DNA of 38,642 bases from Deltaproteobacteria bacterium (GTDB taxonomy: Bacteria > Bdellovibrionota > JACOXK01), in contig JACPKQ010000030.1 of assembly GCA_016186995.1 (NCBI GenBank), positions 1 through 38,642 of the forward strand, given 5' to 3'. The notes under the pieces were generated by a model. It did no database searches and was not told the DNA's origin. It was given only the letters and a program-made list of their open reading frames with translations. Made by a program: the position numbers and the translations under genes. Below are positions 6,886 to 35,358 of this stretch, in pieces. Within the stretch, counting starts at the first letter, position 1, and each line of letters starts with the position of its first letter.

Positions 6886-7455
6886 ATGAAAAAAATACTT
6901 TTAGTTTTTACATTAGGGGTTTTTCTTGCCTCACAAGAGGCTTCTGCAAATTGGAGTTTAGGGCTTCAAGGCCATTCAGGTTGGCTTATCAATGACTCTG
7001 CCACAAGGCATTATAAAAATCCCCAATTTGGTGGGGGTGCTTATCTTTACTACGCACCAGAAATATTTTGGGATTTTGTAGACCTTGGCATACGTAGTGC
7101 TTACACACATTTTCGAGCTAAAACATCATCAACAGCTCAAGAGATCGATGCCATAGATGCACTTCTGTCCGGAAGACTTGTTTTTTTAGATGAACCCGGA
7201 GAGGATTGGGCTATTGATCTTCATCTTGATATTGGCGCTAATTATATGATGCCTTATTCTTCTGGAGGAAAAGACAAACTTAATTTTGCCTATGCCATTG
7301 GAACACAACTTCGTTACTTTGCTTTTGGGGAACACTCCATTGGACTTTTTGTAAGATTCCACCAAGTTTTAGGTGATGTGACAGTTGCAAGTAATACAAA
7401 AGTGAGTAATTTTAACTCATTTCAAGGGGGCATATCTATAGAGTTTAGCCTTTAA
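6886..7455 (+). CDS. Putative outer-membrane beta-barrel protein, unknown function
   Basis: No named family recognised. 189 residues with a clear signal peptide (MKKILLVFTLGVFLASQEASA, cleavage before NWS). The rest consists of short amphipathic strands rich in Gly and aromatics (GAYLYYAPEIFWDFVDLGIR, FAYAIGTQLRYFAFGEHSIG), as in small 8-stranded barrels of the OmpA/OmpW kind. It ends GGISIEFSL; the last residue is not aromatic but the penultimate pattern fits a final strand. It is a single gene with its own extended -10 promoter and strong ribosome site. It is similar in layout, but not obviously in sequence, to the barrel-like protein at 2394. Function unknown. Confidence 0.72.
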   Translation: MKKILLVFTLGVFLASQEASANWSLGLQGHSGWLINDSATRHYKNPQFGGGAYLYYAPEIFWDFVDLGIRSAYTHFRAKTSSTAQEIDAIDALLSGRLVFLDEPGEDWAIDLHLDIGANYMMPYSSGGKDKLNFAYAIGTQLRYFAFGEHSIGLFVRFHQVLGDVTVASNTKVSNFNSFQGGISIEFSL

Positions 7456-7512
7456 TTTCAATATGTTATGTAATTTTGGCTACTTTATCTACAGGCAAAA
7501 CTGAACGAGCAT

Positions 7513-7541
7513 TTGACATTTTTGTTTTTTTCTGCTAATAT
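7513..7541 (+). promoter_or_regulatory. Near-consensus sigma70 promoter
   Basis: TTGACA (7513-7518), a 17 bp spacer and TAATAT (7536-7541) preceded by TGC, an extended -10. This is the best-matching vegetative promoter in the window. Transcription should start at about 7548, directly before the hairpin at 7559, and the next coding sequence is the 26-codon ORF at 7640. Confidence 0.75.
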
Positions 7542-7547
7542 TTTAAT

Positions 7548-7606
7548 CATATAGTGGGGGCTGTAAGAAGGTCATGAAGTGATTTTCTTGCAGCCTTTTT
7601 TTTAGG
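7548..7606 (+). ncRNA. Predicted short terminated transcript or leader attenuator
   Basis: A transcript from the 7513-7541 promoter would run into a strong intrinsic terminator almost at once. GGCTGTAAGAA (7559-7569) pairs with TTCTTGCAGCC (7586-7596) with a single G-U, the stem can be extended inward by GTCA/TGAT around a TGAAG loop, and eight or more T follow (7597-7604). The product would be an RNA of about 55 nt. Either it is a small RNA in its own right, or a constitutive terminator/attenuator controlling the mini-ORF at 7640. No known family was recognised. Confidence 0.5.
7559..7604 (+). terminator. Rho-independent terminator
   Basis: An 11 bp stem (GGCTGTAAGAA/TTCTTGCAGCC, one G-U) followed by a run of T. 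It could also end transcription of the 6886 barrel gene, which stops about 100 bp upstream, but a strong promoter lies in between. Confidence 0.7.
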
Positions 7607-7639
7607 TTGTGGTGGAAGTTGAAAAAAAAGGAGTGAAAC

Positions 7640-7720
7640 ATGAGGCGGCTTGTTGAAGATATCGTAGCATTGATTGTAGGCATGAGTATTACTCTCATCT
7701 TTTGGGTGCTTTTAAGTTAA
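7640..7720 (+). CDS. 26-residue membrane mini-protein (hypothetical)
   Basis: A short ORF from ATG at 7640 to TAA at 7718-7720, preceded by an excellent ribosome site, AAGGAGTGAAAC ATG. The product begins MRRLVEDIVALIVG and ends in a hydrophobic stretch (SITLIFWVLLS): two N-terminal arginines and one membrane-spanning helix of about 17 residues, as in small bitopic regulators of membrane complexes. It lies downstream of a consensus promoter and a terminator hairpin, and its stop is 3 bp from the convergent comEC stop. No family recognised. Support is the ribosome site, the promoter and the coherent membrane helix; without homologues it could still be chance. Confidence 0.5.
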   Translation: MRRLVEDIVALIVGMSITLIFWVLLS

Positions 7721-7723
7721 CAG

Positions 7724-9913
7724 CTAGGATTTTTTATCTATTTTTATCTTTTTCCCATCTGTTCTTATCTGGACAGCTCCGTCGTCGTCTGTCCTTAAAA
7801 TCTGACTCTTTATTTTTTGAAGCCTTTTTAAAACGCCTCGATGCGGTTTTCTAAAACCACAAGAAATGACAGAGACATTTGTTTTAAAGTTTCCTAAAAA
7901 ATTTTGTGAAGTTGATGTATAACTTCCATGATGAGCTACTTTTAAAATACGATATTTTAAATTTTTAAAATGTGAGAAATTTAAAAACCTTTCACTGTAG
8001 TGTTCAATATCACCTGTAAACAAAAACTGCGTTTTTCCAAATTGAAGCATAAAAACAAGTGAACAAAAGTTTCTATTAAAGCCATTACAATTTTGATAAG
8101 GCCACAAAAATTGAAGATCAACTCCATCTATTTTTAATACCTCTTCATTCTGCGCTTGAGTTTTATAGAAAATATTTTTTTCTGTGAGAGTTTTAGTCAA
8201 GTCTGCGACATTTTCATCTTGAGAATCTACGGAGTTTAACCACACTTCTTGAACCTTTATTCTTTCTAAAACAGCTCTTGCCCCGCCAATATGATCCATA
8301 TCAGCATGGGTCATGACAAGGTAATCAAGCTTTCTCACCCCTTTCCACTGTAAAAACGGTACAACAACACGCTTTCCCATATCGACTTCTTTAAAGCGAT
8401 TTCCTGCATCAATCAGCATCGTTTTACCTTGAGGAAAACGAACAAAAATAGCATCTCCATGTCCTACATCAAGAAACGTTACTTGAAGTTCATTTTGATT
8501 GTAGCTGAGAATATTCTTAGACAGAAAAATTAAAAAAAGAACAAGAATGAATAATGGTTTTATTTTTTTTAAAGAAGTGTGATTAAACATAAAAATAAAC
8601 AAAAAAAGATAAATACAAAAAAGAGAAAGCCAATCTTCAATTGAAAAACTTAAAGGAAAAGAGGGAATAGTCTTAAATATAAGAATCATTTTTTGAAAAA
8701 CAAAATCAAGAAGGTTTAAAACCCAAAAATAGAAAAAGGAAAGATTCAATAAAATAAAAATTAAAGTCACAAATAAAGTGGGAATAAGAAAAACTGAAAA
8801 AAAAGGAATGAGAAGAATATTTAAGAAGAAACCAGTGAGAGAAATCTGATGAAAATAAAAAAGAATAAGCGGAGCTGTGCCCACATAAATAAAAAAACAA
8901 GTTAAAACAAGCTTCCATGTTTTATTTTTAATTAAAAGTGGCTGCGCTTTCTGGATTCCAGCTTGTGCCTGCGGCTCATGGCTGGAATGACATACAAAAC
9001 GGAGCCCTAAACCTAAAAATAAAAGGGCTACAAATGAAAGTTGAAAAGAAAGATCCCACAAAACTGAGGGGACTTTTAAAATAAGAAGAGAAGAAACAAA
9101 TATGAGAATTGAAAAATAAGAGGACTTTCTCTCTAAAAACTCATTCACACAAAAGCAAGAAATCATGAGATAGGCTCGATCTAGACAAACATGGGGGTAA
9201 CAAAGGTTTGTGTAAAAAAGGCAAATAAGAAAGCTCACCAATAAGCACCCCTTTTGATGATGATAAGAAAATAGCCCAAGTAAAAAAGAGTAAAAAAAGA
9301 AAAAGATAACACCTAAGTGAAGTCCTGAAATCACAAATAAATGCGATATTCCAAGGTTTCGAATTTTTTGAAATTCTTCTTCTTTTTGGGGTTCACCTAA
9401 GAGAAGAATTTTAAAGTATTGCTCTGATTTAAATTTTTTAAAGATTTTTTTAATTTTAATTCTTAAAGATTGAAAGAAATCATGATGGTGTTCTATTTTT
9501 TTAATACTTAGATCTTTTAATTGCCAAAAAATATTTTTTCGAAAGTAATAGGATTCATCAAAATAATCTCCAAAGTTGCTTAAAAGATTCAGTCTTTCTA
9601 TTTTAAATCGCCCTTCTACAATATCCCCAGGATGAAAATCATTTTTTAAATTCTTAAAATACCAAAAGGCATAAATAAACTTTCTTCCTAATCCTCCCCT
9701 CCCTTTCAAAACCTTTACAAGAGCCTTGTATTTAAAAACTGTGTCAATTTGAAACACTAGATTTTCGTGAGACACTCCATGTTCAGGTGGCTTTATGCAG
9801 GAAACAATGAATAAAGCACGCGTACAGGCGAAAATGAAGAAAACTGTCAGAAATATATAAAACTTCACAGAAGGCTCTAGGGCAAACCCCATGCCAACAT
9901 TTCCTCCGCTCAA
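7724..9913 (-). CDS. comEC: ComEC/Rec2-type DNA uptake channel
   Basis: Inner-membrane channel that takes single-stranded DNA into the cytoplasm during natural transformation. 729 residues, full length. N-terminal membrane segment and soluble OB-like domain (about 15-160), then the competence membrane domain beginning with the family signature ISHLFVISGLHLGV (189-202), several hydrophobic helices to about 475, and a C-terminal metallo-beta-lactamase domain (VTFLDVGHGDA at about 478-488, THADMDHIGG at about 533-542, KVAHHGSYTS at about 651-660) whose metal-binding residues look intact. A D palindrome lies in frame at residues 307-322 (EPQAQAGIQK), between membrane segments. Divergent from glpD across two structured repeats; no other competence gene is nearby. 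Confidence 0.93.
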   Translation of the reverse strand: MSGGNVGMGFALEPSVKFYIFLTVFFIFACTRALFIVSCIKPPEHGVSHENLVFQIDTVFKYKALVKVLKGRGGLGRKFIYAFWYFKNLKNDFHPGDIVEGRFKIERLNLLSNFGDYFDESYYFRKNIFWQLKDLSIKKIEHHHDFFQSLRIKIKKIFKKFKSEQYFKILLLGEPQKEEEFQKIRNLGISHLFVISGLHLGVIFFFFYSFLLGLFSYHHQKGCLLVSFLICLFYTNLCYPHVCLDRAYLMISCFCVNEFLERKSSYFSILIFVSSLLILKVPSVLWDLSFQLSFVALLFLGLGLRFVCHSSHEPQAQAGIQKAQPLLIKNKTWKLVLTCFFIYVGTAPLILFYFHQISLTGFFLNILLIPFFSVFLIPTLFVTLIFILLNLSFFYFWVLNLLDFVFQKMILIFKTIPSFPLSFSIEDWLSLFCIYLFLFIFMFNHTSLKKIKPLFILVLFLIFLSKNILSYNQNELQVTFLDVGHGDAIFVRFPQGKTMLIDAGNRFKEVDMGKRVVVPFLQWKGVRKLDYLVMTHADMDHIGGARAVLERIKVQEVWLNSVDSQDENVADLTKTLTEKNIFYKTQAQNEEVLKIDGVDLQFLWPYQNCNGFNRNFCSLVFMLQFGKTQFLFTGDIEHYSERFLNFSHFKNLKYRILKVAHHGSYTSTSQNFLGNFKTNVSVISCGFRKPHRGVLKRLQKIKSQILRTDDDGAVQIRTDGKKIKIDKKS
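8951..8993. repeat. Palindromic repeat D inside comEC, in frame
   Basis: CTGGATTCCAGC and GCTGGAATGACAT bracket a GCCTGCGGC loop. The 43 bp are read through in the comEC frame without a stop and encode a hydrophilic piece (SSHEPQAQAGIQKAQ) in what should be a loop between membrane helices. Confidence 0.85.
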
Positions 9914-17499: not shown

Positions 17500-18189
17500 T
17501 TATTCATAATAATTTTTTCTTAAATAAAGGGGTTCTATTTCTTTGTACGTCTTAAGTGAATTATTTTTGAATTTTCGCTCACCCAAAAAACCTAGATTAA
17601 GGAGTTGGGGTTGCCATAAATGCTTTGGGGCTATTGAGACTGGATCTGGGATGACACATTCAGAAAGCCCATCTCCCAGTAAAATAATTTTCTTCCCCTC
17701 CCTTTTACTCCCTCCCACAAGGGGAGGGAAAGAATACAGCACATTTAAAAACTTTTCAGAAGAACCAACACCATAATCTCCTTCCAAACAGGGTATGAAA
17801 TCATCCATTGTATAAAAACCCCAATAAACTTCATTTTTACGAGCCTTTAAAACCACCCCAATAAGAGCACCCTCTTTCTTGATATTCATACTTAAGTAAT
17901 CAAGAGTTGGAACAAGTGCTATTTTAAGATTTCTCCCCCTTGCAAGTCCAGCCATCGTTGTGAGTCCAATGCGAAGCCCTGTAAAAGACCCTGGCCCTTG
18001 AGATACAATAAGGCCAGAAACATTTTCTATTCTCTCACCACTTTTTTCAAAGACTTCATTAATCATGGGAAGCAATCGTTCAGAATGAGACATTGTAATA
18101 TTTTGGATAACACAAGAAAGAAGAACCCCCTCTTTCACAAGCCCCACACTCCCTTGCGAAGTAGAGGTATCAACTACTAAATACAACAT
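17500..18189 (-). CDS. tsaB: tRNA threonylcarbamoyladenosine biosynthesis protein TsaB
   Basis: Non-catalytic partner of TsaD in making t6A37 in ANN-decoding tRNAs. About 229 residues from MLYLVVDTSTSQGSVGL (ATG at 18189); the frame is open further upstream, but those residues do not match the family. SHSERLLPMINEVFEKSG and SGLIVSQGPGSFTGLRIGL are the family hallmarks. Residues about 154-166 (SFPPLVGGSKREGKK) are encoded by an in-frame palindromic repeat in the variable C-terminal half, and LSECVIPDPVS at about 175-186 looks like another degraded D end. The gene stands 118 bp after rseP, with a D palindrome between, near the usual neighbourhood of translation genes. Confidence 0.92.
   Translation of the reverse strand: MLYLVVDTSTSQGSVGLVKEGVLLSCVIQNITMSHSERLLPMINEVFEKSGERIENVSGLIVSQGPGSFTGLRIGLTTMAGLARGRNLKIALVPTLDYLSMNIKKEGALIGVVLKARKNEVYWGFYTMDDFIPCLEGDYGVGSSEKFLNVLYSFPPLVGGSKREGKKIILLGDGLSECVIPDPVSIAPKHLWQPQLLNLGFLGERKFKNNSLKTYKEIEPLYLRKNYYE
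17692..17730. repeat. Palindromic repeat E inside tsaB, in frame
   Basis: CCCTCCC-ACAAG-GGGAGGG hairpin preceded by a further CCCCTCCC, in the coding sequence of tsaB without breaking the frame. It resembles the element inside the nucleotidyltransferase fusion at 34966 (CCTCTCCC...GGGAGAGG). Confidence 0.8.
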
Positions 18190-26662: not shown

Positions 26663-29334
26663 GATTTTAGTTTTTTAAGCGCTTCTTGTGCTGTACTTCT
26701 TTTTAAAACAAGTTCATCTAAACGCGCTTTGTGATCATCCACCACTTTTTGAGGGGCTTTACTTAAAAAGCCTTTATTGTGAAGGCGGCCGCCTATTTGC
26801 TTAAGCTCTTCCTCTAACTTTTCAAGTTCTCTCTGAAGCCTCTTTTTTTCTTCTTCTCTATTAATAGCTTCTCCTAAAGAAATAAAAATTTCTGTTCCTT
26901 CAAAAGAACCCTCTCCAAATAAACCTAACTTCAAGAAATCTTTCTTTTTTTCAAAGTGTATTTCTGAAGCTTTTGATAGATTCATAATTGATTTTTCTAG
27001 TGTTCCTATAAGTGTTTTTTGCCTTGAATTACAAATAATATGGATAGGAGCTTTCTTTGAAGGAGAAATATTATTCTCTCCACGAATATTCCGAACAGTG
27101 TTTACAACACCTTGAATAAGGTTCATATCTTTTTTAACGTTTTTAAAAATCCATTTTTTATTTACTTTTGGATATTCTGAAATAATGAGCGGCCTTTTCT
27201 CTGAAAGATGAGCCCAAATTTCTTCGCTGATGTGGGGGGCAAAAGGATGGAGAAGTTTCAAAATTGTTTTCAGTGTTGTTTCTAACACAAAAAGACTTTT
27301 TTCTTTTTCTTTTACATTGTCACCATATAGAACAGGTTTAATAAATTCTAAATACCAATCACAAAACTCACCCCATATAAATTGGTACAGTGTTTGGGCT
27401 GCCTCTCCTAATTTAAAAGCTTCTTGAAATTTAATTATTTCTGAAACTATTTCTTGAAGACGTGTTAAAATCCACTGATCTACTAAAGAAAAAGCTCTGG
27501 ATCCCCTGGTCAAGCCAGGGGATGACATGGAGGGCTCTAAAAAATTCAATGCAAAACGAGAAGCATTCCAAATTTTATTCATAAAATTTCGATACCCTTC
27601 AGTTTGCTCCAAAGAAAAATTAATAGAACGCGTATTGACTGTTTGGACAAGAAGGTTGTACCTCAACGCATCAGCCCCATATTGTGCCGTCACATCGAGT
27701 GGATCAATGGTGTTACCCGACGACTTACTCATTTTTTTACCTTCTTTATCAAGAACAAGAGGATGAAGATAAACATATTTAAAAGGAACTTTTTTCATAA
27801 ATTTTAAACCCATCATCACCATACGAGCGACCCAAAAGAAAAGAATGTCATGCCCTGTTTCCATAACAGTATTAGGATAAAATGTTTTTAAATCTTGTGA
27901 TTTTTTTGGCCACCCAAGGGTAGAAAAAGGCCACAGGGCTGAGCTAAACCACGTGTCTAAAACATCAGGATCTTGGCAAAGCTCTTGATTTTTACAATGT
28001 TCACACCGACTTGGATCTTTTCTTGAAACTGTTATTTTTCCACACTCGCCACAATACCAAGCTGGAATTCTATGCCCCCACCAAAGCTGACGTGAAATAC
28101 ACCAATCTTGAATATTATTCATCCAGTGAAAATAAATTTTTTCATAATGAGAGGGTATGATTTTAATTTTCTTTTCTTTCACAACCTTCATAGCAGGTTT
28201 TGCTAAAGGTTTTGTTTTAACAAACCACTGGGTTGAAAGCCTGGGCTCTACAACTGTTTCACAACGCGAACACAAACTAATATTGAGCTTATAATCTTCT
28301 TCTTTTTCTAAAAGATTTTGTTTCTTTAAATCTTCTAAAACTTTTTTTCGAGCTTGAAACCTATCTAACCCCTGGTAGGAAGGAACGTTTTCATTTATTT
28401 TTCCGTCAATATCAAAAATAGAAACCTGTTCGAGTCCATGACGCAGCCCCATTTCAAAATCGTTAAAATCATGACCTGGAGTGACTTTAACAGCTCCTGT
28501 TCCAAAATCTTTTTCTACATGATCATCTGAAATAAGCTCTATTTCTCTTTCAACTAAAGGAAGAATGAGTTTGTGACCCATCACATTTTTATAACGCTTA
28601 TCTTGTGGGTTCACAGCTACAGCTGTATCCCCCAACATGGTTTCAGGGCGAGTCGTTGCTACAACAATAAAAGTGCTCTTGTCATTCCCGCGAAAGCGGG
28701 AATCTATTTTCTTAAACGGATATTTCAAATACCACAGTTTTCCCTCTCTTTCTTCGTGATCGACCTCTAAATCTGAAAGGGCTGTGTGACACCGAACACA
28801 CCAGTTAATAAGGCGATGGCCTCGATAGATAAGCCCTTCTTCATAAAGACGAACAAAAACCTCCCTGACGGCACGAGAGAGATCTTCATCCATCGTAAAA
28901 TGTTCTCTTGACCAATCAAGAGAAAATCCCATAAAGCGAAGTTGCTCATTAATTCTATTGCCGTGCTTCTTTTTCCACCCCCACACTTTTTCTAAAAACT
29001 TGTCACGACCCACATCGTGACGTGTGACACCCTCTTGAGCCATTTCTTTTTCAACAACGTTTTGTGTTGCAATTCCTGCATGATCAGTTCCAGGTAGCCA
29101 AAGGGTATTAAACCCACTCATTCTTTTCCAACGAATAAGAGCATCTTGAATAACATAGAGGGCATGCCCCAAATGCAAAGAGCCGGTTACATTAGGTGGA
29201 GGAATGACAATCGTAAAAGAAGGTTTTTTGGATGTGCTCTCTGCTTTAAAAAGGTTTTTCTCTTCCCAGAACTTATACCACTTCGGTTCAATCTCTTGAG
29301 GGTTATAATCGGGAAGCTTGACGTTGTTAGCCAT
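26659..29334 (-). CDS. valS: Valyl-tRNA synthetase with two in-frame repeat insertions
   Basis: Charges tRNA-Val and edits mischarged threonine. 891 residues, the normal range. Class I signatures HLGH (54-57) and KMSKS (about 533-537), editing-domain motif VVATTRPETMLGDTAVAV, and a C-terminal coiled coil (EEEKKRLQRELEKLEEELK). Two palindromic repeats are translated inside it: residues 210-219 (IDSRFRGND), in the linker just before the editing domain, and residues 603-613 (SSPGLTRGSRA), between the catalytic and anticodon domains. Both lie in expected surface loops and the frame stays open, so the enzyme is probably functional. The start has no ribosome site. thiN follows with 4 nt overlap. 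Confidence 0.95.
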   Translation of the reverse strand: MANNVKLPDYNPQEIEPKWYKFWEEKNLFKAESTSKKPSFTIVIPPPNVTGSLHLGHALYVIQDALIRWKRMSGFNTLWLPGTDHAGIATQNVVEKEMAQEGVTRHDVGRDKFLEKVWGWKKKHGNRINEQLRFMGFSLDWSREHFTMDEDLSRAVREVFVRLYEEGLIYRGHRLINWCVRCHTALSDLEVDHEEREGKLWYLKYPFKKIDSRFRGNDKSTFIVVATTRPETMLGDTAVAVNPQDKRYKNVMGHKLILPLVEREIELISDDHVEKDFGTGAVKVTPGHDFNDFEMGLRHGLEQVSIFDIDGKINENVPSYQGLDRFQARKKVLEDLKKQNLLEKEEDYKLNISLCSRCETVVEPRLSTQWFVKTKPLAKPAMKVVKEKKIKIIPSHYEKIYFHWMNNIQDWCISRQLWWGHRIPAWYCGECGKITVSRKDPSRCEHCKNQELCQDPDVLDTWFSSALWPFSTLGWPKKSQDLKTFYPNTVMETGHDILFFWVARMVMMGLKFMKKVPFKYVYLHPLVLDKEGKKMSKSSGNTIDPLDVTAQYGADALRYNLLVQTVNTRSINFSLEQTEGYRNFMNKIWNASRFALNFLEPSMSSPGLTRGSRAFSLVDQWILTRLQEIVSEIIKFQEAFKLGEAAQTLYQFIWGEFCDWYLEFIKPVLYGDNVKEKEKSLFVLETTLKTILKLLHPFAPHISEEIWAHLSEKRPLIISEYPKVNKKWIFKNVKKDMNLIQGVVNTVRNIRGENNISPSKKAPIHIICNSRQKTLIGTLEKSIMNLSKASEIHFEKKKDFLKLGLFGEGSFEGTEIFISLGEAINREEEKKRLQRELEKLEEELKQIGGRLHNKGFLSKAPQKVVDDHKARLDELVLKRSTAQEALKKLKS
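27497..27528. repeat. Palindromic repeat D inside valS (second site), in frame
   Basis: CTGGATCCCCTGG-TCAAG-CCAGGGGATGACAT: perfect stem CCCCTGG/CCAGGGG with the family ends CTGGAT and ATGACA. It adds about 11 residues in the loop between the catalytic and anticodon-binding domains. Confidence 0.88.
28681..28705. repeat. Palindromic repeat D inside valS (first site), in frame
   Basis: GTCATTCCCGC-GAAA-GCGGGAATCT: stem ATTCCCGC/GCGGGAAT. Read on the minus strand as IDSRFRGND just upstream of the editing-domain motif VVATTRPETML. Confidence 0.9.
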
Positions 29335-32969: not shown

Positions 32970-33929
32970 TCAAGAACCTGAGTGAGGATTGACAGGAATC
33001 AAGACACCAATAAAAGTAAAGCAAAGCATTCTTAAACGCCTTAAAAGCGGAAAACTCACAGCTAAAAAAGGAGAAAACCCCACATAAGTAAAAAGAAGAA
33101 AGAGGCTTCCTTCTGAAGCGCCCAGACTTCCAGGGATAAAACTTGAAAAGGTGTGCACTACAATCATAAAAGCCCCTAGTGCAAAAGCCGCTAAAAATGA
33201 AATAGGTTCTCCTAAAAAATGAAGTAAAAGATAAATTTCAAAAACACCAAGAATCCATCCTAAAAGGTGAAAAAATAAAGAAATACAAAAATCTTTTTTT
33301 CTTTTTTGAAGAAAGTTGGAAGAAATACTATCCAACTCCACAAATTTTTCTTGATACATCTCAAGCCATTTTATTTTTAAAAATGAGTTTAATTTATTAA
33401 TAAAAAAGAAAACCTTCCCCCTATTTTTAAAAATAAAAAAACTTAAACTAATAAAAACAAAACTAATAGGGATAAGTAATAACCGAATGTGGAATGGGTT
33501 TTTAAAATAAAAACTTGCTGCGAACGTTCCTAAACCCACAAAAATAATGCCACTATAAATATGAAGTGTTTTATCCAAGTAAACAGAAGAAATATTTTCT
33601 TTTAAAGAATAAAAGTTTTTTAAATAAAAAATCCGCAAAGGTTCACCTCCTGAAGAAAAAAAGGGTGTTATCATATTGTAGGTTTCAGCCTTCAATTTGA
33701 TTTTAAACAATGTCCACAAAGAAGGCTTTCGCCCCAGTAAAAAACTCCATGCATAAGTGTTACAAAGATGCCACAAAAAAGCCACAATGAGAATAATGGA
33801 AAACTTAAAACCTACTTTCTGAAAAGAGTCGTAAATATTTTCAAAACCCAATTTGTAGCACAGAAAAAAGATAAGGCTTAAACCCACAAGCAGAAGAAAA
33901 AAATGCCCATTAAACAGTTTGTGCTTCAT
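32970..33929 (-). CDS. YbhN/LPG-synthase-type flippase-like membrane protein
   Basis: Integral membrane protein of the UPF0104/lysylphosphatidylglycerol synthase transmembrane family, 319 residues with about 8 hydrophobic helices. TYNMITPFFSSGGEPLRIFYL (about 85-105) is the family motif (GE-hR block) and SFIPGSLGASEGSLFLLF (about 268-285) the second. Members move or modify lipids, often beside glycosyl- or phospho-transferases. The start overlaps the upstream fusion gene by 20 nt, so the genes are coupled. The last residues (NPHSGS) and the TGA stop come from an A-type repeat flank (AGGTTCTTGA), so the native C-terminus was probably altered. Confidence 0.85.
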   Translation of the reverse strand: MKHKLFNGHFFLLLVGLSLIFFLCYKLGFENIYDSFQKVGFKFSIILIVAFLWHLCNTYAWSFLLGRKPSLWTLFKIKLKAETYNMITPFFSSGGEPLRIFYLKNFYSLKENISSVYLDKTLHIYSGIIFVGLGTFAASFYFKNPFHIRLLLIPISFVFISLSFFIFKNRGKVFFFINKLNSFLKIKWLEMYQEKFVELDSISSNFLQKRKKDFCISLFFHLLGWILGVFEIYLLLHFLGEPISFLAAFALGAFMIVVHTFSSFIPGSLGASEGSLFLLFTYVGFSPFLAVSFPLLRRLRMLCFTFIGVLIPVNPHSGS

Positions 33930-35358
33930 ACTTTCTAAGAAGAACTAAAGAGTAAAGGCACACAACAAAACACCCCGCAATTAAAAGATAAAAAATAGGA
34001 AGCCATTGTTTAAAAAGCGCTAAAATAAAAAACGAAAAGGCATAAAAATCACGCTTTACAACAAAACTAAAATAACGAGGTAAAAAACTTAAAAAAACTT
34101 TTTTTTGTCTTCCTAAATTAAAAACAGCTCTTTCTATCAAAACAAGCGTTCCATGAGATTTATTCTTTTTTAAATAAAAATACATACTGAGAAGTGCTAT
34201 CACTAAAAAGAAAAAACCAATGCTCGAAAGAAATAAATAATAAGAAGAATGATAATAAGAAGAGAGTCCAATGCCAAAGCTTAAAACAAAAAGAACATAC
34301 ACGACATTATCTGACAAAGTATCAACCCAAGCCCCTTTTTCACTTTGCTCAAACTTAAGCTTAGCAACCTCTCCATCGCACCCATCTAAAACAGAAGCAA
34401 GCTGAAAGAAAAAAAAGGCCTTTAAAAAATCTCCACTCAAGGCACATGCACAAGAAAAAAGCCCCACCACTAAACCACATAAACTTACATACAGGGGTGT
34501 TATGGGAAGGTAAGAAAGCAGCCTACTGATCCACAAAGAAATAGGACGATTAAGATTTTTTGAAATAATACCATCTGTGGGTTTCCTGCACCATTTAAGA
34601 AGAAGTTTTTCTCCATGCTTAAGAGAAGAAGGCGTGTCTACATCTTGCCATTCAAAAGCGCCTATATCATAACATCTTATTTTTCTAAGCTCTGCTAAAT
34701 ACTTAACTGTGTTAATCAGTGATAAAGAAAAATCTCTTTTATCTTTTAAATAACCTAGCACCTTAAATATAAAAGGTGTGCAATAAAAAACTCCTGTATC
34801 AATCGCATTATACTTTTCTATTTCTTTACCTGTGTTTTTAATTTTAAAATCTTCCTGGTCTACCTTACTTGCATCTTCAAGATCAAAAATAGAGCTCATT
34901 TTAGAATCTATAGCTAATACAACCTCATCAGGGTCTCTATTATCTGCTTTCGATCCTCCGTTCTTCCTCTCCCTTGATGGGAGAGGACTGAGGAGAGGGT
35001 GAACAGTAGCTTGAATAAAATTTTCTAAAAATCCAGGTTGTAAAATATGATCTCCCATAAGAAGAATGAACGGATCGTCCACATAAGGCCTAGTTTTTAA
35101 AAGTGAATAACCATTTTCTTTGTGCCAATCTTCATTCACAACCCACTGAATACGAATATCTTTATATTTTTTATTAATATAATATTGAACAGCGTCTCCC
35201 CGATAACCCACAACGATAACAAAATCTTCAATGTGAGCTTTCTTGGCAGTTAAAATGCTTCGTTCTAAAAGAGTCAGCCCGCAAATATGAGTAAGAGACT
35301 TTGGTTTTTTACTCTGGAGCCTTTCACCTCGTCCTGCAGCTAATATAACAGCCTTCAT
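33910..35358 (-). CDS. Fused nucleotidyltransferase and CDP-alcohol phosphotransferase
   Basis: 482 residues, two domains. The N-terminal sugar/polyol-phosphate nucleotidyltransferase (1-240) has VILAAGRGERLQ, KPKSLTHICG and LLMGDHIL. The C-terminal membrane domain (about 265-475) has the CDP-alcohol phosphotransferase motif DGCDGEVAK plus GAWVDTLSD (about 323-349), with all four Asp in place (the usual Arg is Lys). The same domain order occurs in bifunctional inositol-phosphate cytidylyltransferase/di-inositol-phosphate-phosphate synthases. Here it may activate a phospho-alcohol with CTP and transfer it to a second alcohol or lipid; the substrate is not known. Residues about 118-131 contain an in-frame E palindrome (SPLPSRERKNGG). 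Overlaps the radical SAM gene by 4 nt and the flippase gene by 20 nt. Confidence 0.88.
   Translation of the reverse strand: MKAVILAAGRGERLQSKKPKSLTHICGLTLLERSILTAKKAHIEDFVIVVGYRGDAVQYYINKKYKDIRIQWVVNEDWHKENGYSLLKTRPYVDDPFILLMGDHILQPGFLENFIQATVHPLLSPLPSRERKNGGSKADNRDPDEVVLAIDSKMSSIFDLEDASKVDQEDFKIKNTGKEIEKYNAIDTGVFYCTPFIFKVLGYLKDKRDFSLSLINTVKYLAELRKIRCYDIGAFEWQDVDTPSSLKHGEKLLLKWCRKPTDGIISKNLNRPISLWISRLLSYLPITPLYVSLCGLVVGLFSCACALSGDFLKAFFFFQLASVLDGCDGEVAKLKFEQSEKGAWVDTLSDNVVYVLFVLSFGIGLSSYYHSSYYLFLSSIGFFFLVIALLSMYFYLKKNKSHGTLVLIERAVFNLGRQKKVFLSFLPRYFSFVVKRDFYAFSFFILALFKQWLPIFYLLIAGCFVVCLYSLVLLRKYEAQTV
34966..35001. repeat. Palindromic repeat E inside the fusion gene, in frame
   Basis: CCTCTCCC-TTGAT-GGGAGAGG hairpin followed by ACTGAGGAGAGGGTG. 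It encodes a hydrophilic insert (SPLPSRERKNG) in the nucleotidyltransferase domain after the LLMGDHIL strand, and keeps the frame. Confidence 0.85.

Follow-up and report, generated by a model that had tools for sequence, protein, structure and literature searches.

A strong promoter, a terminator hairpin and a hydrophobic mini-ORF between convergent genes: candidates for a small RNA and a membrane micropeptide in an uncultured deltaproteobacterium

Why would a bacterium carry a strong promoter directly in front of a strong terminator, with a 26-codon ORF beyond it? The question is raised by a 268-bp spacer between two convergent genes of an uncultured Deltaproteobacteria bacterium, in which the promoter, the hairpin and the mini-ORF all lie on the plus strand. 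The window, by which we mean the whole 38,642-nt stretch of DNA that was analysed, is contig JACPKQ010000030.1; genome-wide statistics were computed on the whole 1.68-Mb genome (G000, 93% complete), in which gene calling by codon usage gave 1,405 genes. The features concerned are:

6886..7455, plus strand: gene for an outer-membrane-like protein of 189 aa with a signal-peptide-like start (an ORF with a 36% identical relative at the same convergent position in genome G001)
7513..7541, plus strand: probable sigma70-type promoter, TTGACA-17-TAATAT with a TGC extended -10 and likely start A7549 (sequence, genome ranking)
7549..7604, plus strand: predicted terminated RNA of ~56 nt, with a 7-nt 5' end, the hairpin and a U tail (placed from the promoter and terminator positions)
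7556..7603, plus strand: probable intrinsic terminator, a 20-pair hairpin at 7556-7598 with a T8 run at 7596-7603 (sequence, folding)
7628..7639, plus strand: putative ribosome-binding site of the mini-ORF, AAGGAG plus spacer (sequence)
7640..7720, plus strand: candidate gene for a 26-aa single-helix membrane protein (ORF, SD, hydropathy)
7724..9913, minus strand: comEC, with Competence and metallo-beta-lactamase domains, convergent (Pfam)

Here, we propose, tentatively and with a little less than even confidence, that the spacer specifies a lineage-specific RNA of ~56 nt, nested in the 3' UTR of the neighbouring outer-membrane-like gene, and that leaky read-through yields a little single-helix peptide. 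RNA polymerase would initiate at ~7549, at the strong promoter within that 3' UTR, and would halt at the hairpin at ~7604, giving a stable hairpin RNA whose terminator would be common to it and to the upstream mRNA. Minor and probably unregulated read-through transcripts would carry AAGGAG-AUG, from which a small amount of a lineage-specific membrane peptide could be made. Transcription, termination, read-through and translation are what we infer from the signals described below; the unit is a candidate of known kinds, and its mechanism is not new.

The -35 element TTGACA (7513-7518) begins 58 nt past the stop of the upstream gene at 7455, on the same strand, and is followed after a 17-nt spacer by the -10 element TAATAT (7536-7541) with TGC just 5' of it. 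The original prediction named this the strongest promoter in the window, and rightly so: about 18 sites in the window match at least 10 of the 12 hexamer bases, and the site at 7513, the best extended match, is the only one with a perfect -35, a TGn and the conserved -10 bases. Scored across the genome by hexamer matches plus a TGn bonus and a spacing bonus, it is equalled by few intergenic sites (6 at its score in the genome, vs 1 in one first-order shuffle). With genic DNA included, 8 sites score at least 12, five of them no more than 150 nt ahead of a gene start, and the same holds for 16 of the 35 sites scoring at least 11.5, as compared to 2.9% of random positions. This concentration upstream of gene starts indicates that the promoter model is valid for this organism. 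Among the top 8 sites, only 7513 does not point towards a called gene start, and even this exception would fall away if the mini-ORF were a gene. Its pairing with a terminator is also singular, in that a promoter of such strength stands no more than 30 nt before a strong intergenic terminator in 1 case of 127, which is this locus, where a rate estimate (in a post hoc test) puts the expected chance count at ~0.05.

The hairpin itself (7556-7598) has 20 pairs, G-U counted, around a 3-nt loop, and a minimum free energy (MFE) of -26.3 kcal/mol (z -5.9, with 0 of 200 shuffles equally stable), which ranks 8th among the 3,947 hairpin-plus-T sites of the genome. With its stem starting ~7 nt past the likely start of transcription and its T8 run, it is indeed the strong terminator that had been described right after the promoter. 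Both the MFE and the centroid fold of a longer, 183-nt transcript retain it. The hairpin is one-sided, with the T8 on its 3' side and no U run opposite, and so would terminate in the plus direction only, unlike the A/T-flanked symmetric hairpins that make up many of this genome's terminators. The notion that it is a copy of a repeat was rejected, there being no second copy in the genome, and Rfam searches at gathering and permissive thresholds gave no credible element match at the locus.

A point overlooked at the outset is that the hairpin lies 100 nt past the stop of the same-strand gene 6886-7455 (the genome median for this distance is 89 nt), and thus may simply be the terminator of that gene. 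It is the only intrinsic-terminator-like site found on the plus strand after that gene (7556-7603), and its strength resembles that of 3' terminators, being far more stable than typical 5' attenuators (mean terminator energies -20.2 and -16.5 kcal/mol, respectively; PMC2965389). Since it is one-sided, very stable, at the usual distance from the stop and the sole candidate, the hairpin is most likely where the upstream mRNA ends; should the promoter be active, the ~56-nt RNA from ~7549 would end there too.

The mini-ORF beyond it (7640-7720; 26 codons, MRRLVEDIVALIVGMSITLIFWVLLS) has AAGGAG six bases 5' of its ATG, and the best 17-residue mean hydropathy of its peptide is 2.69, in agreement with the near-perfect ribosome site and hydrophobic tail first reported for it. 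The ORF can start no further upstream, as a TGA lies in frame two codons before its ATG, and its stop and that of comEC are 3 nt apart. Intergenic mini-ORFs that are SD-led and hydrophobic (ATG, 14-59 codons, a strong SD at a good spacing, peak hydropathy at least 2.0) number 3 in the genome vs 0.25 expected from shuffles. Of the two besides this one, one has a paralogue with which it forms a family of two, which indicates that the test is informative. At +1.15 over 25 codons, the codon score of the mini-ORF is neutral or weakly positive and thus uninformative. By partition function, the ribosome-binding site is unpaired with a mean of 0.40 vs a genome median of 0.36; the possibility that the U8 tract of the terminator hides the SD was rejected on account of this ordinary accessibility. 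Hence transcripts that leak past the terminator would be translated, and, since no other promoter-like site was found in the interval between hairpin and ORF, read-through would be the only route to it. Based on their rarity in the genome (of the promoter, of its pairing with a terminator and of SD-led hydrophobic ORFs), we regard the promoter and the terminator as probably genuine and the mini-ORF as plausibly a gene.

How old might this unit be? The sole family member compared, a groundwater metagenome-assembled genome (G001, JACOXK010000121.1), has homologues of both flanking genes (the outer-membrane-like protein at the identity given above, comEC at 39%), also convergent, with only 10 bp between their stops. 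G001 thus lacks the whole spacer, and with it the promoter, the hairpin and the ORF, which were either gained in this lineage or lost in that of G001. The outer-membrane-like protein has no family match in Pfam or NCBIfam, and a protein-level scan of genome contigs returned the G001 relative, one unrelated weak match and nothing else. Searches with the peptide gave no credible match in 291 genomes of the phylum, no paralogue in its own genome and no homologue in phages, plasmids, PDB, Pfam or NCBIfam; as a degenerate pattern (checked on the window) it had no match in viral contigs. A phage or plasmid origin of the unit was rejected, as these searches gave no match. The hairpin DNA found nothing beyond 22-25-nt matches in 369 phylum genomes. 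The original prediction had counted a lack of conservation beyond this strain against the ORF; the searches found none, a result which, with no same-genus genome in the comparison, is not decisive.

Is the hairpin, then, an ordinary 3' end, and are the mini-ORF and the resemblance to a promoter mere accidents of an AT-rich, lineage-specific spacer? This is the main rival to our proposal and we consider it possible, if doubtful. The distance of the hairpin from the stop, its strength and the lack of any other terminator-like site after the gene all fit it, as does the missing spacer in G001, and T-rich DNA readily yields hydrophobic frames. It sits less well with the promoter, since only ~0.06 equally promoter-like sites are expected in gene-end-facing spacers genome-wide (at the genic rate), with the over-representation of SD-led hydrophobic ORFs, or with a hairpin that is one-sided where many terminators here are symmetric. 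A small RNA with leaky read-through, as we propose, would share the same 3' end.

The original prediction had left a choice between a ~55-nt small RNA and an attenuated leader, with regulation acting on the hairpin, for instance by an antiterminator protein. The small-RNA option fits the anatomy best. For attenuation, in which such a protein or another signal would permit read-through of a regulated terminator to the mini-membrane protein, the order of promoter, terminator, SD and ORF is correct, with 98 nt from the -10 to the ATG, and as in known attenuators the terminator sits between promoter and ORF (PMC2965389). However, the seven nt before the stem could hardly sense a signal, and we saw neither a sequence that could form an alternative to the stem nor a match to a known element, which leaves a regulated antiterminator unsupported. 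Unlike known attenuators (PMC2965389), the locus has no sensor, leader peptide, T-box or riboswitch, its hairpin is over-stable for the task, and the controlled ORF is a mere 26 codons, lineage-specific, and with no gene downstream of it; the terminator is likewise not conserved, being absent in G001. Attenuation is thus unlikely, and the antiterminator protein is not borne out. A variant in which a minimal promoter-hairpin gene of a lineage lacking Hfq makes both a self-acting ~56-nt RNA and a regulated read-through micropeptide, a dual gene of less than 210 bp, strikes us as very unlikely.

The peptide also invites comparison with membrane type I toxins, which are hydrophobic and shorter than 60 aa (e.g. 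IbsC, ShoB, and AapA1; PMC8309996) and which it resembles in size and in its single helix. On the comEC strand, no recognizable terminator precedes the mini-ORF (7456-7724, minus), so the comEC mRNA probably runs antisense through the whole unit and could serve as an antitoxin RNA; a minus-strand comEC terminator lying over the mini-ORF was considered and rejected (no structure, z +1.0). Unlike those toxins, however, this peptide has no cationic C-terminus and no sequence relationship to them that we could find, its SD is unsequestered, and no dedicated promoter for an antitoxin RNA was identified (none of at least 10/12 on the minus strand near the mini-ORF). With neither a paralogue nor a mobile context, a small hydrophobic toxin held in check by its terminator and by comEC read-through acting as antisense RNA is highly improbable here.

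If the ~56-nt RNA is made as we propose, what might it do? Small RNAs embedded in 3' UTRs with their own promoter are known, such as MicX (reviewed in PMC9438474), and the arrangement here is alike in that the promoter lies past a gene's stop codon and the terminator would be common with the upstream mRNA. It differs from these in being predicted from sequence, ~56 nt long, nearly all stem and not conserved. A partnership with Hfq or another chaperone is typical of such RNAs, but not required; the Hfq family had no match at E<=0.001 in G000 or in five relatives of its class (G001-G005), with search controls positive in 5 genomes. As Hfq was not found and the predicted RNA is almost without single-stranded seed, a classical base-pairing regulator is disfavoured.

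At present, the locus offers well-supported sequence signals, which are present as described and rare in the genome, with no conservation found and with an RNA and a peptide that are predicted only. Should the unit prove to be transcribed, an uncultured lineage in which no Hfq was detected would have a candidate small RNA and a candidate micropeptide, and the locus would illustrate the insertion of a young gene, confined to one lineage, between two conserved convergent genes.

Other features of the genome were observed along the way. Two paralogous single-helix ORFs of 37-38 aa, 78% identical (G000 contig C27, 8292-8408, plus strand, and contig C5, 31923-32033, minus strand), each have their SD within a long hairpin directly upstream (unpaired probability 0.10 and 0.001, median 0.36), and their stop codons are directly followed by a strong hairpin. 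They look like a translationally silenced family of small membrane proteins, similar to type I toxins, and have a partial relative in G004 (L135).

In addition, a dispersed repeat of ~100-130 bp with the core ACTACAGCGAGCCATGAAGCGGAAGATAGTAACCATTTTAAGAACCTAA, often after the palindrome CAGTGCTTTAGCACTTACGGGAT, is present in 47-48 copies, none in called genes; three are in the window (2212, 6740, and 17450) and ~45 at other genome sites. In-frame palindromic repeat pieces are found within valS (28683-28703 and 27490-27538), a tsaB-like gene (17689-17734) and the ORF 33910-35358, those outside the valS insertion being seen in ORF translations and the hairpin list only. In valS, the residues around DSRFRGND form an 8-residue insertion missing from the G001 homologue, an in-frame insertion reminiscent of the Rickettsia palindromic elements.
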